From contig NZ_AP017372.2 of NCBI RefSeq assembly GCF_002356555.2, positions 248,001-312,000 of the forward strand: DNA of 64,000 nt, read 5' to 3'. The notes under the pieces were generated by a model, which saw nothing but the letters and a program-made list of their open reading frames with translations, did not search any database and was not told where the DNA came from. A program made the position numbers and the translations under genes. This document shows positions 1-63,767 of the stretch, one piece after another (within the stretch, counting starts at the first letter, position 1; the number at the start of each line of letters is the position of its first letter). This DNA is from Halorhodospira halochloris. GTDB lineage: Bacteria; Pseudomonadota; Gammaproteobacteria; Nitrococcales; Halorhodospiraceae.

Positions 1-124
1 CACCATCCGCCCCGGTGTGGAGGACGCCGTGAATCCATCCCTGGAGGCTTCATGGCGCCATCCCTAGCGCCAAGACCTCCACACCGGGGCGGATGGTGGC
101 GCCGGCGAGGTTTTAGAGGTTCCC
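1..124 (+). mobile_element. Palindromic MITE-like element, copy A (left end cut by window edge)
   Basis: This is a forward-oriented copy of the interspersed palindrome. The core half-sites CCCCGGTGTGGAGG (10-23) and CCTCCACACCGGGG (76-89) flank the asymmetric loop. The right arm (90-119) belongs to class 1 (CGGATGGTGGCGCCGGC and onward) and ends AGAGGTTCCC at 115-124. By comparison with the 149-bp copies at 25863 and 46514, about 25 bp of the left arm lie outside the window. The copy lies about 80 bp upstream of aspS. Confidence 0.85.
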
Positions 125-5820: not shown

Positions 5821-6032
5821 CTGAGCCTAGCTGCCCCGGTGTCGAGGACGCTGTGAATCCATCCCTGGAGGGTGCCTCTAAAAACTTCGCCTGCGCCACC
5901 ATCCGCCCCGGTGTGGAGGTCTTGGCGCCAGGGATGGCGCCATGAAGCCTCCAGGGATGGATTCACGGCGTCCTCCACAACGGGGCGGATGGTGGCGCAG
6001 GCGAAGTTTTAGAGGTTCCCTGGAGGCTTCAT
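5821..6032 (+). repeat. Older, truncated palindromic element interrupted by copy C
   Basis: Positions 5823-5870 (GAGCCTAGCTG, then CCCCGGTGTCGAGGACGC and the loop to CCCTGGAG) and 6021-6032 (TGGAGGCTTCATG, sharing the duplicated bases) are the left half and centre of a forward element with class 2 arms. Its right half is missing. A complete reverse-oriented element (5871-6020) sits inside it, so this copy is older. The recD reading frame runs into both. Confidence 0.8.
5871..6020 (-). mobile_element. Palindromic MITE-like element, copy C (nested insertion)
   Basis: This complete 150-bp reverse-oriented class 1 copy is flanked by direct duplications TGGAG at 5866-5870 and 6021-6025, inside an older element. 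Its left arm reads CGCCTGCGCC where other class 1 copies read CGCCGGCGCC. The right arm carries the matching change (GGCGCAGGCG), so pairing is preserved. One core half-site has a single change (CCTCCACAACGGGG). It supplies the recD stop codon. Confidence 0.9.
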
Positions 6033-8066
6033 GCCGATGAGCTGGTCGTGGAGGCCGGCGCTGCGGTTGACGCGGGCGGCAAGGCCGGCGGCGAGGACAC
6101 TGTGGCCGGGGTCAAGCAGGGTAAAGCGGTTCCGCGCCCGGGTGATGGCGGTGTAGATGAGTTCGCGGGTAAGGATGGGGCTCGGCCGGTCGGGGAGCAG
6201 TAGGGCGGCGTGATCGAACTCGGAGCCCTGGGCCTTGTGCACGGTCATGGCGAAGACGGTTTCGATGTTGTTAAGGCGCGCCGGTAGCACCCAGCGCAAC
6301 GCCGCTTTGCCGCCGTCGGCGGCCGGGAAAGCGACCCGTAGAGTGGTGCGGTGCGGCTCGTCGGTGTCGGGTAGCGGCAGGGCGATGCCAATATCGCCAT
6401 TGTTCAGGCCGAGTTCGTAGTCATTGCGGGTGACCATCACTGGCCGCCCCGGATACCAGTGGGCACCGGATTCGATGAGCCCGCTAGCCGCTAGCCTGGC
6501 AGCGATGCGCCTATTTAGCCCCTCGACCCCCCAAGGGCCGCGGCGCAGGGCGGTCAGCAGCTGGAAACGTCCATGCTCGGTGAGGACGCGGTGGGCCCAC
6601 TCGTCATACTCGGCCGCCGTGGCTGTGGCATCAGGGCGGGCGGCGACGGCCTCCAGATAGGGGCGGTAGCCGGCTTCGGCTAGTTCCTCCAGGGCGTTAT
6701 CATCGGGGCCGCGCAGGTGCTGGTGGTGGAGGTCGGTGTAGCCGCCGGTGGCCAGTAGGGTCTTGGCGGTGGCAATGTCGCCGCTGTTGACGGCGTTGGC
6801 CAGGCGACCAATGCCACTGTCAGCAGCGAAGCGGTGGCTGTGGCGGAGCATGACAACGTGTTGATCCAAGGCGCTGCCAGCGGTATCACGCAGCTGCTCG
6901 GGGATGCTCTCGCCACTGACCGACTCCAGCCAGTCGCAAGTGGTGGGCATATAGTGGCCTTGCGCAGCGCGCTGGCAGAGTTCCCCTAGCACGGCACCGG
7001 CCTCCACCGAGGCGAGCTGGTCGTGGTCGCCGAGTAGGATCAGCCGAGCCCGAGGTGGCAGGGCAGCCAAGGTCGATGCCATTAGTTCGACATCTATCAT
7101 CGACGCCTCGTCTACCACCAGCACATCGAGCGGCAGCAGGTTATCGGCATCATGGCGAAAGCGGCGCGAGCCTGGCCGGACACCCAGAAGTCGGTGGATG
7201 GTGGTGACCTCGGTGGGTATGTTGGCACGGAGTTGCTCGTCGGGCAGGTTTAGACCGTGAACAGTGCCGGCAACGGAGGCGTTCAAGCGGGCGGCGGCCT
7301 TGCCGGTGGGGGCAGCCATGCGGATGCGCAAGGGGCGCTGCTCGGCATCGCGACGCAGCCCCTGGAGCAGGGCGAGCAGGCGCACCACGGTAGTGGTCTT
7401 GCCGGTGCCGGGGCCGCCGGTGACCACCGCGAAGCCGCTGCCAGCGGCCACCGCGCAGGCTAGTCGCTGCCAGGTTTCGGTGGGGTCCTGTGGCCCGAAT
7501 AGGGTGTCGAGCCAGCGGCGCACCGCTTTTGGCTCCAGTTCGTCCCGCCACTGCGTGACCTGTGCCATGCGCCTCTCCAGGGTGACGGCGATACGCCTTT
7601 CGCTCTGCCAATAGCGGCGTAGATAGAGGCGGTGGCCATCAAGGATAAGCGGTGGCTGTTCATCTGCGTCGGGGCTGGCCTCTATCGGCGCGCCAACCAC
7701 GTCGCTGTCGGCGTTTAGGGTCGCCACCAGGGTGCTACGATCGAGACCGGAGAGACACTGGGCGGGACGCGGCAGGGGCTGCTCCGTCATTGCTTCAGCG
7801 CCGCGTCCATCTTCCGGTGGCAGCGACAGGCTGCGATCAGGATCGGATAGTAGTGCATCGAGGTCGAGGCAGACGTGGCCGCGTCCGGCCTGATGGCTGA
7901 CCAGGGCAGCACAGAGCAGGGTCGCTGGGGTGGTACCCGGGGCCTGGTCATGGAGGAAGGCGACTAGGGCGTGATCGAGGGGCCGCAGCCAATCGCAGTC
8001 GCGCCAGTCCTTCAGTAGGGCGAGGGCCGCTGTCGCGCTGTCCAGGGGATGGCTAGCAGCGCTCAT
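6009..8066 (-). CDS. recD: Exodeoxyribonuclease V alpha subunit (RecD helicase)
   Basis: RecD is the fast 5'-3' helicase subunit of RecBCD, the enzyme that processes double-strand ends for recombination and degrades foreign linear DNA. The 685-residue protein has a regulatory N-terminal domain, Walker A GGPGTGKTT (217-225), a Walker B-like VVDEASMID (about 318-326) and the C-terminal helicase motif TVHKAQGSEFDHA (about 617). Its ATG overlaps the recB stop (ATGA), indicating translational coupling in recC-recB-recD order. The last residues (GMKPPGNL) and the TAA stop are encoded by two nested palindromic elements, so the native C-terminus was probably slightly different. Confidence 0.95.
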   Translation of the reverse strand: MSAASHPLDSATAALALLKDWRDCDWLRPLDHALVAFLHDQAPGTTPATLLCAALVSHQAGRGHVCLDLDALLSDPDRSLSLPPEDGRGAEAMTEQPLPRPAQCLSGLDRSTLVATLNADSDVVGAPIEASPDADEQPPLILDGHRLYLRRYWQSERRIAVTLERRMAQVTQWRDELEPKAVRRWLDTLFGPQDPTETWQRLACAVAAGSGFAVVTGGPGTGKTTTVVRLLALLQGLRRDAEQRPLRIRMAAPTGKAAARLNASVAGTVHGLNLPDEQLRANIPTEVTTIHRLLGVRPGSRRFRHDADNLLPLDVLVVDEASMIDVELMASTLAALPPRARLILLGDHDQLASVEAGAVLGELCQRAAQGHYMPTTCDWLESVSGESIPEQLRDTAGSALDQHVVMLRHSHRFAADSGIGRLANAVNSGDIATAKTLLATGGYTDLHHQHLRGPDDNALEELAEAGYRPYLEAVAARPDATATAAEYDEWAHRVLTEHGRFQLLTALRRGPWGVEGLNRRIAARLAASGLIESGAHWYPGRPVMVTRNDYELGLNNGDIGIALPLPDTDEPHRTTLRVAFPAADGGKAALRWVLPARLNNIETVFAMTVHKAQGSEFDHAALLLPDRPSPILTRELIYTAITRARNRFTLLDPGHSVLAAGLAARVNRSAGLHDQLIGMKPPGNL

Positions 8067-18704: not shown

Positions 18705-19772
18705 TTAGCTCCGATCCGGCGCGAAACGGAAGGTGATAGTGCTCATTCTTTGCTGCAAGGCGGCCTCATCCGAGTCTGGGAAAGGCACCGGCGAGGCCCT
18801 GTGAACGGCCTGTTCTACAGAACGGTCAAAACCGCTGTCGCCGCTGCCGTCGACCACCTCAACTCTGCGTACTGTACCATCGCGGGTAAAAGAAACGCGT
18901 ATGACAGCCTCGAGCCCTTCTGGGGTGCCTCGAGGCCGACTCCACGAACTCTCCACGCTGTCGGCAATGGCCCTCATATAGCGGTTCTGTAACCCTTCGA
19001 GCCGTTGCTGCTCTTCGGCCTGCTGGCGCTCTTGTTGTAAGCGTTGACGCTCGTCATCGAGCTGCTGCTGACGCTGTGCTTCGCGCTCTTGATCCATTGC
19101 CTGGCGCATCTCTTCGCGCAATCGCTCGCGTTCAGCAGCAGGATCAGGTTGTTCCTGCTCCGGTTCCGGCTCTGGCTCAGGCTCCGGTTCCGGCTCCGGT
19201 TCTGGCTCAGGCTCCGGCTCCGGTTCTGGCTCAGGCTCAGGCTCGGGCTCAGGCTCTGGCTCTGGCTCAGGCTCAGGCTCGGGCTCAGGCTCAGGCTCTG
19301 GCTCAGGCTCTGGCTCAGGCTCTGGCTCTGGTTCTGGCTCCGGCTCAGGCTCTGGCTCAGGCTCTGGTTCTGGCTCCGGTTCTGGCTCCGGCTCCGGTTC
19401 CGGCTCAGGCTCCGGTTCCGGTTCCGGTTCCGGCTCTGGCTCAGGTTCCGGCTCTGGCTCAGGCTCAGGCTCGGGTTCTGGCTCAGGCTCCGGTTCCGGC
19501 TCCGGTTCAGGTTCTGGCTCCGGTTCAGGTTCTGGCTCCGGCTCTGGCTCCGGTTCCTCCTCTACCGCGAAGGCCTGAGTGTCAACAACGCTTGCCTCAA
19601 TAACCGGGCTATCCTGCTCCGGGCGTTGGAAATCTGGTGTGCGCAGGCTTATATTGGCGGCAAAAAGGAGCATAATCGCCAAATGGCCGAGCACCGAATA
19701 GAGCACAAAGCGCTGCGGACTGGCAAACAACCAGCCTAAATATGGGCGGATTCTTTCTTTGATCCCATACAT
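18705..19772 (-). CDS. tolA: TolA with an extreme Glu-Pro repeat linker
   Basis: TolA spans the periplasm and couples the TolQR proton motor to TolB-Pal at the outer membrane. Residues 24-43 form the single membrane helix ([20 protein letters not shown]). Residues 73-204 are about 66 uninterrupted Glu-Pro dipeptides encoded by a hexanucleotide repeat (19161-19556). Then follow a charged Gln/Glu/Arg coiled-coil segment (about 210-265) and the C-terminal TolA/TonB-like domain ([20 protein letters not shown]). In E. coli the middle domain is a long Ala/Lys-rich helix; here much of it is replaced by an EP rod, as in some TonB proteins. The C-terminal domain and position in tolQRAB support TolA. 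Confidence 0.93.
19161..19556 (-). repeat. Hexanucleotide (GAR CCN) microsatellite in tolA
   Basis: There are about 66 tandem copies of a degenerate 6-bp unit encoding Glu-Pro (GAACCG, GAGCCT, GAGCCA and variants). Both third positions vary, so the array is translationally pure but not identical at DNA level. This suggests selection on the protein, with old slippage events. No frameshift is seen. Confidence 0.95.
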
Positions 19773-24444: not shown

Positions 24445-25862
24445 CCGTGTCAGCGACCTTAGATTATCAGGCTATGCCCTACATCGCTGAGCCGGGGGCC
24501 GCGCTGCATGCTCTAGGCGGGGAGCAGTGGTCGGCATGGCTTGACTCAGGCCACCCTGGGCAGGGTAGCGGACGCTTCGACATCCTAGTCGCGCGCCCCG
24601 CCGCCACTCTGGTTATGAGCGGCGGCGTTACCCGGCTGGCTCGAGGTTCAGCGGTTCGCTACGCCTCCGGCAACCCGCTGGAGCATCTAGATGAGTTGCT
24701 CAGTGAGTTTGGTGAGGTTACCAGCGATCCTGACTTGCCCTTCGTCGGCGGTGCGCTGGGGTATTTCACCTACGATCTAGGTCGCCGGCTGCTGGGGATT
24801 GGTGCCGGTCAGGGAGAACAGGGCCGCCCTGAAATGGCGGTTGGCATATACGAGTGCGCCATAGTCACGGATCACTTAAGGCGATATTCGGTTGCTGTCG
24901 GCAGAAGGCTTGACCACGATTGGCTGGCGCTCGTGCGGGATAGGCTGGGCGAATACTCTAGCTTGAGTAGTCGGGAGGGCACCGAGTGCCAGGGCTATCA
25001 GCCTTTTCGGCTGGAGGGCGAGGTCCTCGTTGAGCCGACCGCGCAAGCTTATGCGGAGCAGTTTAGACGGGTGCAGGAGTATCTTCACGCCGGCGACTGT
25101 TATCAGGTCAATCTAGCCCGCAGGTTTACTGCGCCTTTCAGTGGCGACCCGCAAAGCGCCTATCTGGCTCTGCGCGCTTGTTCCCCAGCCCCTTTTGCGG
25201 CTTGGATGCGCTCGCCGCGTTCAGACCTGTTGAGCTTTTCCCCGGAGCGGTTCTTGAGTGTTGATGCCCAGCGCCGGGTGGTCACTGAGCCGATCAAAGG
25301 GACGCGCCCACGGGGGATAAATCGCGAGCAGGATCAGGACTACATCAGTGAGCTCAGCTGCAGCAGCAAGGATAGGGCTGAGAATGTCATGATCGTCGAT
25401 TTGCTGCGCAATGACCTAGGCAAAGGGTGTAAGTTCGGCACCGTTAAAACAACCGAGCTGTGCCAGGTACATAGCTACGCCAGCGTTCACCATTTAGTTA
25501 GCCGGATAACAGGTCAGTTGGGCGCAGGTTACACGCCGCTCGCTTTGCTGCACGACTGTCTGCCCGGGGGTTCAATAACAGGTGCGCCTAAGCGGCGGGC
25601 CATGGAGATAATCGATGAACTGGAGCCGGGGCCGCGTAGGGTCTACTGCGGCTCAATCGGCTACATCGGCTTTGATGGCCGGATGGATAGCAACATAGCC
25701 ATCCGTACCGCAATATGTGAGCGGGGACAGGTAACCTATTGGGCGGGTGGCGGCGTGGTTGTCGATTCGACGCTCGATGCCGAGCTGCAGGAGACAGTGG
25801 ATAAAGCCTATGCCTTCTTGCGTTTGGCTCAGTCCAGCGAGGATAAAAAACGGAATGCATAG
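24441..25862 (+). CDS. pabB: Aminodeoxychorismate synthase component I
   Basis: PabB converts chorismate plus ammonia to 4-amino-4-deoxychorismate in folate synthesis. The preferred start is GTG at 24441, with AGGA 8 nt upstream and an overlap with the small ORF; an ATG at 24405 is possible. The chorismate-utilizing domain carries GDCYQVNLARRF, SFSPERFL, PIKGTRPRG and GGSITGAPKRRAMEIIDELE. The lysine in PIKGT distinguishes PabB from TrpE and forms the covalent intermediate. No pabA or pabC follows. The TAG stop lies within the CATAG duplicated by the adjacent mobile element. Confidence 0.93.
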   Translation: MTVSATLDYQAMPYIAEPGAALHALGGEQWSAWLDSGHPGQGSGRFDILVARPAATLVMSGGVTRLARGSAVRYASGNPLEHLDELLSEFGEVTSDPDLPFVGGALGYFTYDLGRRLLGIGAGQGEQGRPEMAVGIYECAIVTDHLRRYSVAVGRRLDHDWLALVRDRLGEYSSLSSREGTECQGYQPFRLEGEVLVEPTAQAYAEQFRRVQEYLHAGDCYQVNLARRFTAPFSGDPQSAYLALRACSPAPFAAWMRSPRSDLLSFSPERFLSVDAQRRVVTEPIKGTRPRGINREQDQDYISELSCSSKDRAENVMIVDLLRNDLGKGCKFGTVKTTELCQVHSYASVHHLVSRITGQLGAGYTPLALLHDCLPGGSITGAPKRRAMEIIDELEPGPRRVYCGSIGYIGFDGRMDSNIAIRTAICERGQVTYWAGGGVVVDSTLDAELQETVDKAYAFLRLAQSSEDKKRNA

Positions 25863-26011
25863 GCGGCCTCTAAAACTTCGCCGGCGCCACCATCCGCCCC
25901 GGTGTGGAGGACGCCGTGAATCCATCCCTGGAGGCTTCATGGCGCCATCCCTGGCGCCAAGACCTCCACACCGGGGCGGACGGTGGCGCCGGCGAAGTTT
26001 TAGAGGTTCCC
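25863..26011 (+). mobile_element. Palindromic MITE-like element, copy E
   Basis: This full-length 149-bp forward class 1 copy has duplications CATAG at 25858-25862 and 26012-26016. The outer arms begin GCGGCCTCTAAAACTTCG and end TTTTAGAGGTTCCC. One arm mismatch (CGGACGG against CCATCCG) is a tolerable G-U pair in RNA. It lies between the convergent genes pabB and the HDOD gene, immediately after the pabB stop. Confidence 0.92.
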
Positions 26012-26039
26012 CATAGCGAGCGAAAAAACTCGCCCTATT

Positions 26040-34134: not shown

Positions 34135-34272
34135 ACTGCCTCCCTCCTGAGCCATTTAGTTGTCCCGGTGTGGAGGTCTTGGCGCCAGGGATGGCGCCAT
34201 GAAGCCTCCAGGGGTGGACTCACGGCGTCCTCCACACCGGGGCAGCTAAGTGGCTCAGAGGGAGGCAGGGAC
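34135..34272 (-). mobile_element. Palindromic MITE-like element, copy F
   Basis: This reverse-oriented copy has arms GCCTCCCTCCTGAGCCATTT on the left and AAGTGGCTCAGAGGGAGGC on the right. GTGCT occurs on both sides (34130-34134 and 34273-34277), a possible duplication of lower certainty because the two arm lengths differ. It lies between the convergent genes perM-like and phoH-like, ending within 6 bp of the latter's stop. Confidence 0.85.
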
Positions 34273-43063: not shown

Positions 43064-43219
43064 GGGAGATCCAAAGCCGCACCCCGGAGCCACTCAACCT
43101 TCCCCGGTGTGGAGGTCTTGGCGCCAGGGATGGCGCCATGAAGCCTCCAGGGATGGATTCGCGGCGTCCTCCACACCGGGGAAGTTGAGTGGCTCCAGGG
43201 TGGGGCTTTGGAGGCTACC
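43064..43219 (-). mobile_element. Palindromic MITE-like element, copy G
   Basis: This 156-bp reverse-oriented copy carries its own arm sequence: GGAGCCACTCAACCTT on the left pairs with AAGTTGAGTGGCTCC on the right, and further out CCAAAGCCGCACCCC pairs with GGGTGGGGCTTTGG. The flanks TTTAG (43059-43063) and TTGAG (43220-43224) may be a decayed duplication. It lies between convergent galU and the ArsA-type gene. Confidence 0.88.
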
Positions 43220-46348: not shown

Positions 46349-46513
46349 GAGCCTTACTCCTTAATATGTTTTCGTGACTGGATGACTGCTATCGCCTCGC
46401 TACCCCGACAACCTACAGCGTGGTTTACGGGGGCGAAATGCTAGCATCGCGCTAGATGCTAGCTTGTCGGGGAATCGTTGTCATGTCTGGTGGAGAGTTT
46501 TCTTGCCACACAG

Positions 46514-46662
46514 GGAACCTCTAAAACTTCGCCGGCGCCACCATCCGCCCCGGTGTGGAGGACGCCGTGAATCCATCCCTGGAGCCTTCATGGCGCCATC
46601 CCTGGCGCCAAGGCCTCCACACCGGGGCGGATGGTGGCGCCGGCGAAGTTTTAGAGGCCACC
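46514..46662 (+). mobile_element. Palindromic MITE-like element, copy H
   Basis: This full 149-bp forward class 1 copy has exact duplications CACAG at 46509-46513 and 46663-46667. Ends are GGAACCTCTAAAAC and GTTTTAGAGGCCACC. Unlike most copies it lies between divergent genes (cstA and uspA) and occupies nearly half of their shared upstream region, so it may affect promoters. Confidence 0.92.
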
Positions 46663-46686
46663 CACAGTTACATACTTGGAGGCAGC

Positions 46687-48873: not shown

Positions 48874-49023
48874 AAGGGACATCTAATAAACTCCCACCCT
48901 GGGCCTAGCTGCCCCGGTGTGGAGGTCATGGCGTCAGGGATGGCGCCATGAAGCCTCCAGGGGAGGATTCACGGCGTTCTCCACACCGGGGCAGCTAGGC
49001 TCGGGGGGGTTAGAGGCGCCCCA
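48873..49023 (-). mobile_element. Palindromic MITE-like element, copy I
   Basis: This 151-bp reverse-oriented copy has class 2 arms (GGGCCTAGCTG / CAGCTAGGCTC). The outer arms have decayed (ATCTAATAAACTCCC against GGGGGTTAGAGG). GATTA occurs at 48868-48872 and 49024-49028. It separates copZ from copA and is the only copy between co-directional genes. Confidence 0.87.
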
Positions 49024-58493: not shown

Positions 58494-58531
58494 TGCGCCA
58501 GGTCTGGCGCTGCGGATTTCTGAATGGAACT

Positions 58532-58770
58532 TCTACGAATCCCCCGGAGCCATTTGCTACCCCGGTGTGGAGGACGCCGTGAATCTATCCCGGGAGGCTT
58601 CATGGCGCCATCCCGGCGCCAAGACCTCTACGAATCCCCCGGAGCCATTTGCTACCCCGGTGTGGAGGACGCCGTGAATCCATCCCTGGAGGCTTCATGG
58701 CGCCATCCCTGGCGCCAAGACCTCCACACCGGGGTAGCTAAATGGCTCCGGGGGAGTTTTAAGAGGCGCC
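58532..58770 (+). mobile_element. Palindromic element copy J with 95-bp tandem duplication
   Basis: A forward copy with arm GGAGCCATTTGCTAC is present as two direct units: 58532-58626 and 58627-58770, period 95 bp. The first unit ends within the core (GACCTCTACG) and lacks a right arm; the second is complete and ends GTAGCTAAATGGCTCCGGGGGAG in two pieces. The loop differs slightly between units (CTATCCCGGGAGG against CCATCCCTGGAGG). It lies between the convergent yhaN-like gene and the DPW-repeat gene. Confidence 0.87.
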
Positions 58771-58811
58771 TACCAATTGGATCAATGGGAGTTTAGGGGG
58801 TTCCTAAAAGA

Positions 58812-63548: not shown

Positions 63549-63557
63549 AGCCTCCAG
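63549..63557 (-). repeat. Fragment of an older palindromic element at the insertion site of copy K
   Basis: AAGCCTCCAG just before copy K equals part of the element loop (ATGAAGCCTCCAGGG in reverse orientation). Copy K may therefore have inserted into a relic, as copy C did. The match is short. Confidence 0.4.
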
Positions 63558-63712
63558 GGGCGCCTCTAACACTCCCCTCGAGCCACAACCGGCTACCCCG
63601 GTGTGGAGGACGCCGTGAATCCATCCCTGGAGGCTTCATGGCGCCATCCCTGGCGCCAAGACCTCCACACCGGGGTAGCCGGTTGTGGCTCGAGGGGAGT
63701 GTTAGAGGCTAC
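63558..63712 (+). mobile_element. Palindromic MITE-like element, copy K
   Basis: This 155-bp forward copy has private arms: CTCGAGCCACAACCGGCTA pairs exactly with TAGCCGGTTGTGGCTCGAG, and CCTCTAACACTCCC with GGGAGTGTTAGAGG. TCCAG flanks both sides (63553-63557 and 63713-63717). It lies between the convergent tricorn-type and hydrolase genes. Confidence 0.92.
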
Positions 63713-63767
63713 TCCAGAGACCGACTTACGGTGTCCCAATATGTGCGCTTACTGACGCGTTTGGGCG

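Follow-up and report, generated by a model that had tools for sequence, protein, structure and literature searches.

The palindromic repeats of Halorhodospira halochloris are probably IS5-type MITEs that carry a widespread T-shaped core on top of mostly unrelated arms, with the arms matched by template switching and the core recognised by a protein. The duplications and ends described below fit non-autonomous MITEs of ~150 bp, which an IS5-family transposase would cut at GGNNNCCTCTAAAA ends and insert so that 4 bp of the target are duplicated, with some preference for intergenic C|YNNR|G sites. Several hundred copies would have built up in this way, and of a matching transposase only a broken relic was found in H. 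halochloris. The tip itself is probably not IS-derived, as a class-wide core sits atop mostly unrelated arms, including those of the TA-flanked palindromes of a related genus. Template switching by the polymerase may copy one arm onto the other and could also flip the core, which is probably retained because a putative protein recognises its two matching loops.

The window, the whole 64-kb stretch of DNA that was analysed, covers positions 248001-312000 of the single-contig 2,834,560-bp genome of H. halochloris. The repeats pointed out in it by the first-pass annotation are real, as are the nested copy and the flanking duplications. The features are listed here by their positions in the window.

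1 to 124, plus strand: palindrome copy truncated by the window start (whole-genome match 247979-248124)
5834 to 5869, plus strand: older copy (core), left part, recipient of copy C; resumes at 6025-6035; once joined, the two flanks align over the junction to columns 1-47 of the core HMM
5866 to 5869, plus strand: target duplication TGGA, left of copy C (end offsets from the duplication scan)
5870 to 6020, minus strand: copy C, a 151-bp palindromic MITE with its core on the minus strand
6021 to 6024, plus strand: target duplication TGGA, right of copy C
6025 to 6035, plus strand: continuation of the older copy around copy C (joined flanks)
25858 to 25861, plus strand: target duplication CATA, left, overlapping the end of the pabB ORF
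25862 to 26011, plus strand: 150-bp copy of the young subfamily, which served as query
25909 to 25965, plus strand: example of the T-shaped core, two hairpins with loops CATCCCTG; other strand CAGGGATG
26012 to 26015, plus strand: target duplication CATA, right
34136 to 34268 (approximate ends), minus strand: older copy, arms diverged, lacking a clear duplication
~43064 to 43219, minus strand: older copy with imperfect duplication (TTAG / TTGA)
46509 to 46512, plus strand: target duplication CACA, left
46513 to 46662, plus strand: 150-bp copy
46663 to 46666, plus strand: target duplication CACA, right
48875 to 49021, minus strand: older copy with imperfect duplication (TAGA / CAGA)
58526 to 58774, plus strand: copy with a partial direct (tandem) duplicate of its own left part ahead of it (58529-58614), 95 bp apart
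63554 to 63557, plus strand: target duplication CCAG, left
63558 to 63713, plus strand: 156-bp copy whose self-complementary arms have another sequence; it lies inside an older copy
63714 to 63717, plus strand: target duplication CCAG, right

Genome-wide, a search for a 20-base core pattern, allowing at most 3 mismatches, gave 295 matches, and its reversed control gave 0. A core profile detected 228 copies in 1.664 Mb, comprising the window and regions chosen blind to the repeat, at a density of ~1 per 7.3 kb; the family numbers several hundred copies in this salt-loving purple bacterium. The copies are 150-156 bp long and non-coding, and their arms are self-complementary (199 copies measured), which gives them the terminal inverted repeats of a MITE. 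Predicted ORFs, called mechanically, are overlapped by 18 of 227 copies. Of the copies, 107 lie between co-directional, 60 between convergent and 42 between divergent genes, compared with 463, 142 and 155 available gaps of at least 30 bp, respectively. A search of the 64-kb window against Rfam at the gathering score matched tRNA alone, leaving the palindromes without a match.

An exact 4-bp target duplication flanks 56 of the 114 copies, among the 228, that could be anchored at both ends, whereas ~0.4 would be expected at 1/256. The exact 4-mer is absent from the remaining 58 anchored copies, which counts against our favoured explanation; we assume that these copies are old or that their ends were misplaced. 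An offset scan performed best at symmetric offsets, with a 4-mer match in 31 of 60 anchored copies (of 99) and a 5-mer match in at most 21 of 60; in this 60-copy set a target G follows 21 of the 31 duplicated 4-mers. Among the 56 duplications, the preceding base is C in 38, the following base is G in 42, and both hold in 26. The duplication is 4 bp, not 5, and the extra G is the first base of the element combined with a target preference for C|NNNN|G.

These results bear on the first-pass annotation, which had placed TGGAG on both sides of copy C and CATAG, CACAG and TCCAG around other copies, and had proposed a duplication of 4-5 bp with either a preference for AG or a G contributed by the element. 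The duplications are real and the G does come from the element, but the 5-bp, AG-preferring version does not hold: CATAG, CACAG and TGGAG are CATA, CACA and TGGA (the last at 5866-5869 and 6021-6024) plus the first G of the element, and TCCAG is CCAG, the shared T being the base with which the right side of the element ends by chance. Around the copy at ~43064-43219, the reported pair TTTAG/TTGAG reduces to the imperfect TTAG / TTGA. The statement that every duplication ends in AG does not survive the wider set, in which the 4-mers are varied (CATA, TTGC, AAAA and CTCG among others). The duplications begin with Y in 39 of 56 and end with R in 47 of 56, and many are not YTAR, so that the fit to the YTAR target of the IS5 group is loose. 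The element ends themselves consist of GGNNN followed by CCTCTAAAA, on each arm.

When the element and one 4-mer were removed, the joined flanks of 6 of these 56 copies, copy C and the copy at 63558 among them, re-formed an older core that spans the junction. Two of the six cases span nearly the whole core (E 4.8e-21 and 9.9e-18) and the weakest has E 1.3e-4; these nested junctions are empty sites within the genome itself. For copy C, the joined flanks restore the core across the junction, in agreement with the earlier proposal that the surrounding older copy displays the pre-insertion sequence. In eight congeners, with at most 21 candidates scored per genome, no element with H. halochloris arms was found. 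Some match was present in three of the eight: in G002 and G006 solely within query positions 39-109, and in G008 over 36 bases (E 6e-4). The core was also absent from the pabB-region loci of two Halorhodospira MAGs (L089 and L103); the first-listed match to the PabB of the window is from a Halorhodospira MAG, at 56% identity. Together, the generalised 4-bp duplications, the six nested copies and an IS5-family element of a congener, whose ends and target are of the same type, indicate that the palindromes are mobile, as first proposed.

The congener element, located in the sister species G002 (G002:C70), has ends GGGCACCTCGAAAAACC / GGGAGGCTCGAAAAACTG and the target C|CATT|G, which the ends and target of the MITEs resemble, so that these palindromes share their ends with an IS. 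It matches NF033581 (NCBIfam) in two pieces, one of 265 aa above the cut-off and one of 179 aa below it; its gene is interrupted, which counts against it as an intact partner. Its N-terminal part, searched against 9 genus genomes, retrieved itself and one weak relative (G006, E 6e-6), and nothing in H. halochloris. The latter carries an IS5-family relic with stops, scoring 49 bits against NF033581, below the cut-off of 140, with the end GGGAGCCTCTATAAACTG. A search for an intact partner through repeats longer than 450 bp in 864 kb of H. halochloris detected no pair of MITE ends, nor did inspection of the 6 PF01609 loci of the whole genome, one of which is the relic, at 2244 kb. Used as a query against 54 genomes of the order, the relic matched 3, its own genome counted. 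A distant relative in another family of the order (G036; 33% identity, E 5e-5) has ends GGAGACTCTGAACT and 4-bp duplications, with TTAR in 7 of 10 copies. The interpretation that best fits these sequences is that the palindromes are IS5-type MITEs, with no intact partner known from H. halochloris.

The tip of the palindrome, ~60 nt, forms a T-shaped core composed of an outer stem and two hairpins with conserved loops. Hits in relatives were mostly restricted to the middle of the query; on inspection they proved to be the same core, topping palindromes whose arms are different. In an alignment of 15 sequences from 12 genomes the unpaired stretches are invariant and the stems covary, with two-sided changes in 11 of 17 pairs. 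The covariance model built for the core (R1) matched 48 of 229 genomes of the class, in 42 of 196 genera, H. halochloris included; since 23 candidates were scored per genome, copy numbers from this search are lower bounds. In a phylum sample of 249 genomes the core was found in 16, with one single match (E 1e-5) outside the class. A search of plasmids and phages gave no core match at E 1e-5. Relaxing the limit to E 1 brought up five weak hits, all on plasmids and all with E 0.4, which look like chance.

Thirty core loci from the search of the class were fetched, and the arms are self-complementary in all 28 that were testable, one of them from H. halochloris. The median number of paired arm bases is 26.5, compared with 4.0 in 108 cross-genome controls; 28 of 28 loci exceed the 95th percentile of the controls and 26 of 28 exceed every control. 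Between genomes the arms are mostly unlike, with related arms in a few. In G009, a genome of a related genus, the palindromes end TAC..ACC; both ends were visible in 7 of the 10 loci read, and 6 of these 7 have TA at each end. Inspection by eye of 20 more regions, from G135, G141 and G230, showed arms that vary among copies and match within a copy (motif displayed for 19).

The same pattern holds within H. halochloris, where the two arms of a copy pair over a median of 47 nt at a median identity of 0.88 (199 copies), and divergence between copies is 0.39 in the arms versus 0.09 in the core. Among the 178 copies whose arms reach 30 nt or more, comparison of 154 nearest-copy pairs revealed 401 coordinated substitutions (218 transitions, 183 transversions) versus ~9 expected if the arms changed independently, a count that is inflated by kinship within subfamilies, some differences possibly being inherited rather than made in place. 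There were 995 single-arm substitutions (600 transitions, 395 transversions) and 259 other variable cells, and indel columns affected both arms in 242 cases and one arm in 463. Arm mismatches in 181 copies comprise 206 G·U and 211 A·C (p 0.84); as the two are equal, the match between the arms is probably not maintained by pairing at the RNA level. One orthologous site was compared in three Rheinheimera species; R. lutimaris has the element there in inverted orientation between collinear flanks (score 68 on the opposite strand versus 10 on the same strand), as template switching would do. From the coordinated substitutions and indels, the lack of a G·U preference and this one in-place inversion, we infer that the arms are matched by template switching. 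Two observations temper this view: in the young subfamily (51 copies) 275 deviations affect one arm versus 90 both arms, and in only 83 of 178 copies do the two arms resemble each other more than they resemble the nearest other copy. An initial comparison of arms in fixed 36-nt windows (own arm strictly best in 30 of 99) was discarded because the windows were out of register, and was replaced by anchored alignments.

Two other accounts of how the palindromes spread and stay palindromic have to be weighed at this point. It is extremely improbable that they are REP/BIME palindromes spread by a RAYT (Y1) transposase and flanked by 4-mers through coincidence. The genome does contain six Y1_Tnp matches, and the many copies and intergenic placement are as in REPs, but the 4-bp duplications, exact in 56 of the 114 anchored copies, and the conserved DDE-type ends speak against it; Y1 transposition is not known to leave a target duplication. 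The Y1 transposase at 1197746 fits an IS200/605 element beside the gene-cassette cluster 1184958-1199464 described for H. halochloris DSM 1059 (PMC7923331). Arm complementarity might also be preserved by selection on an RNA hairpin through compensatory evolution instead of template switching, for which the pairing of arms in all testable loci and the two-sided changes in the core pairs could be invoked. The equal numbers of G·U and A·C mismatches argue against such selection, as does the share of transitions, which is lower among coordinated (218:183) than among single-arm changes (600:395), and the coordinated changes include indels. RNA-level compensation of the arms is thus not supported by the mismatch and substitution counts, and we regard it as distinctly unlikely.

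On one strand, both loops of the core have the sequence C A N G G A N G. Across 72 distinct rows from outside H. halochloris the fixed loop positions are conserved at 0.96-1.0 and the two N positions at 0.72-0.83; these rows derive from 79 matches, several per genome, that score best with the model, which favours conserved loops. Two copies of CANGGANG are present in 63 of the 72 cores and one in 9, and the spacing is 23 nt in 59 of the 63. CANGGANG is the published Rsm (CsrA/RsmA) motif (PMC6849547), and all 9 genus genomes have csrA. Among the 228 H. halochloris copies, 132 have two motifs, 71 have one and 25 have none; here the fixed loop positions are no more conserved than the remaining core (both ~0.92-0.97), and the core column that varies most (0.77) is an N position in one of the loops. 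Core orientation relative to neighbouring genes shows no strand bias in H. halochloris (58 of 107 co-directional copies, p 0.44) or in other genomes (11 of 26, p 0.56; 46 of 48 loci usable). The core stems are Watson-Crick in 1038 of 1062 cells (forward A.C 7, G.T 3).

The candidate ligands of the core, judged from these patterns, are CsrA bound to RNA and a protein reading a DNA cruciform. A DNA cruciform or hairpin recognised either way round by a candidate protein, such as a recombinase, hairpin nuclease or nucleoid protein, is a serious possibility, although we place it somewhat below an even chance. It would agree with the absence of strand bias, the almost strictly Watson-Crick stems, the in-place inversion tolerated at the orthologous site and the conservation of unpaired stretches besides the loops; the exact fit of the loops to the CsrA motif would then be a coincidence. 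That fit, with only the N positions variable in both loops, and the occurrence of csrA throughout the genus instead favour an RNA device, a double CsrA/RsmA-binding site that would act as a dispersed CsrA sponge or as cis-regulators: once the GGA strand is transcribed, two hexaloops CANGGANG lying 23 nt apart could capture one CsrA dimer. GGA does lie in hairpin loops as in CsrA targets, but its placement is not strand-specific, only 132 of 228 H. halochloris copies keep both motifs, wobble pairs are rare in the stems, and the 72 rows are a choice that favours conserved loops, which leaves this device doubtful though worth entertaining. A strand-biased RNA role of the core was looked for in H. 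halochloris and in other genomes and is rejected, as no bias was found. More speculative, and on the whole unlikely, is the proposal that one T-shaped module with two CsrA/RsmA-type loops constitutes a mobile, vehicle-swapping CsrA sponge with arms rewritten by template switching; it would form the apex of unrelated palindromes (IS5-type in Halorhodospira, TA-type in the related genus, and others) in dozens to hundreds of chromosomal copies through Gammaproteobacteria.

IS-derived MITEs with target duplications are an already known kind of element. The IS5-family MITEs described in PMC10969869 are likewise short and non-coding, with terminal inverted repeats, a target duplication and many, mostly intergenic copies, and their ends are common to a transposase-coding IS, as are those described here. 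Compared with IS-derived MITEs, however, the palindrome here extends along the full length of the element up to a T-shaped tip, which is found again in palindromes whose ends are different, and the arms are strongly unlike between copies yet matched within a copy. ERIC (IRU, RU-1) elements, 127 bp long and known from enterobacteria and Vibrionaceae (PMC2229807, PMC10969869), are also intergenic palindromic repeats with a conserved centre, and by eye a short stretch resembles the core (GTGAATCC); they have TA termini (PMC2229807), unlike the elements of H. halochloris with their 4-bp target duplication. ERIC is the closest named repeat among those considered, but kinship with it was rejected for the one E. 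coli ERIC locus examined (L309), which gave no R1 match up to E 5 with filters off. Correia/NEMIS elements are palindromic MITEs of similar size that likewise reach a high copy number. Their TA termini (PMC2229807) differ from the ends of the H. halochloris palindromes.

REP/BIME sequences associated with RAYT are repeated extragenic palindromes, often in more than 100 copies, as here (PMC2817692); they are single hairpins of ~20-30 nt, many starting with GTAG, in contrast to the ~150 bp, 4-bp duplications and two-hairpin tips of the present family. CsrA-sequestering RNAs of the CsrB/RsmZ kind, and CsrR1/CsrR2 (PMC9788540), similarly display several GGA motifs in loops, whereas here there are two loops per dispersed copy and no strand bias. 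A link between CsrA and repeat elements was not found in the open-access literature searched, and PMC9788540 concerns single-copy sRNAs. Template switching has been described in yeast as homogenising the arms of inverted repeats and inverting their spacers (PMC8604942), which is how we read the present data, with the difference that our case concerns a mobile bacterial family and an orthologous bacterial site and is drawn from sequences. Core strings gave no relevant paper in the open-access literature, and a class-wide core in palindromes of different ends, with arms matched only within copies, was not found there either; subscription papers on ERIC or gammaproteobacterial repeats may be missed by such a search.

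The analysis leads from the mobile repeat of one genome to a core that is conserved across a bacterial class, with surrounding arms that mostly differ. Three questions become testable: by what means long palindromes retain matching arms, how one tip came to be common to elements whose ends differ, and whether repeats titrate the global regulator CsrA. For measuring template switching in nature, the family offers a large number of insertions that still have their duplications, nested ones among them.

Several further observations were made along the way. The recD ORF of the window (6009-8066, minus strand) terminates within copy C (5870-6020), which seems to supply its stop codon and last residues. 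A 62-bp palindrome of the same genome (G000:C1:1621013-1621074) has the same ends, CGCCTCTAAAA...TTTTAGAGGCG, and no core, and is possibly a core-less member of the family. In the genome G462 (C1:94440-95636) six core matches lie on the same strand at ~227 bp spacing, as though the palindrome belonged to a tandem array, and near pabB of Rheinheimera hassiensis (L136:11921-11981) there is a second, weaker core match (E 0.0012) whose arms pair by eye. An ORF at 18705-19772 of the window (minus strand) contains a long array of 12- and 18-bp repeat steps at 19061-19636 (28 overlapping copies). Elsewhere in the H. halochloris genome (G000:C1, 380404-385272) a 1.4-kb insertion sequence is split by a 3.46-kb element, which is found again at no fewer than 2 other places in the sample.
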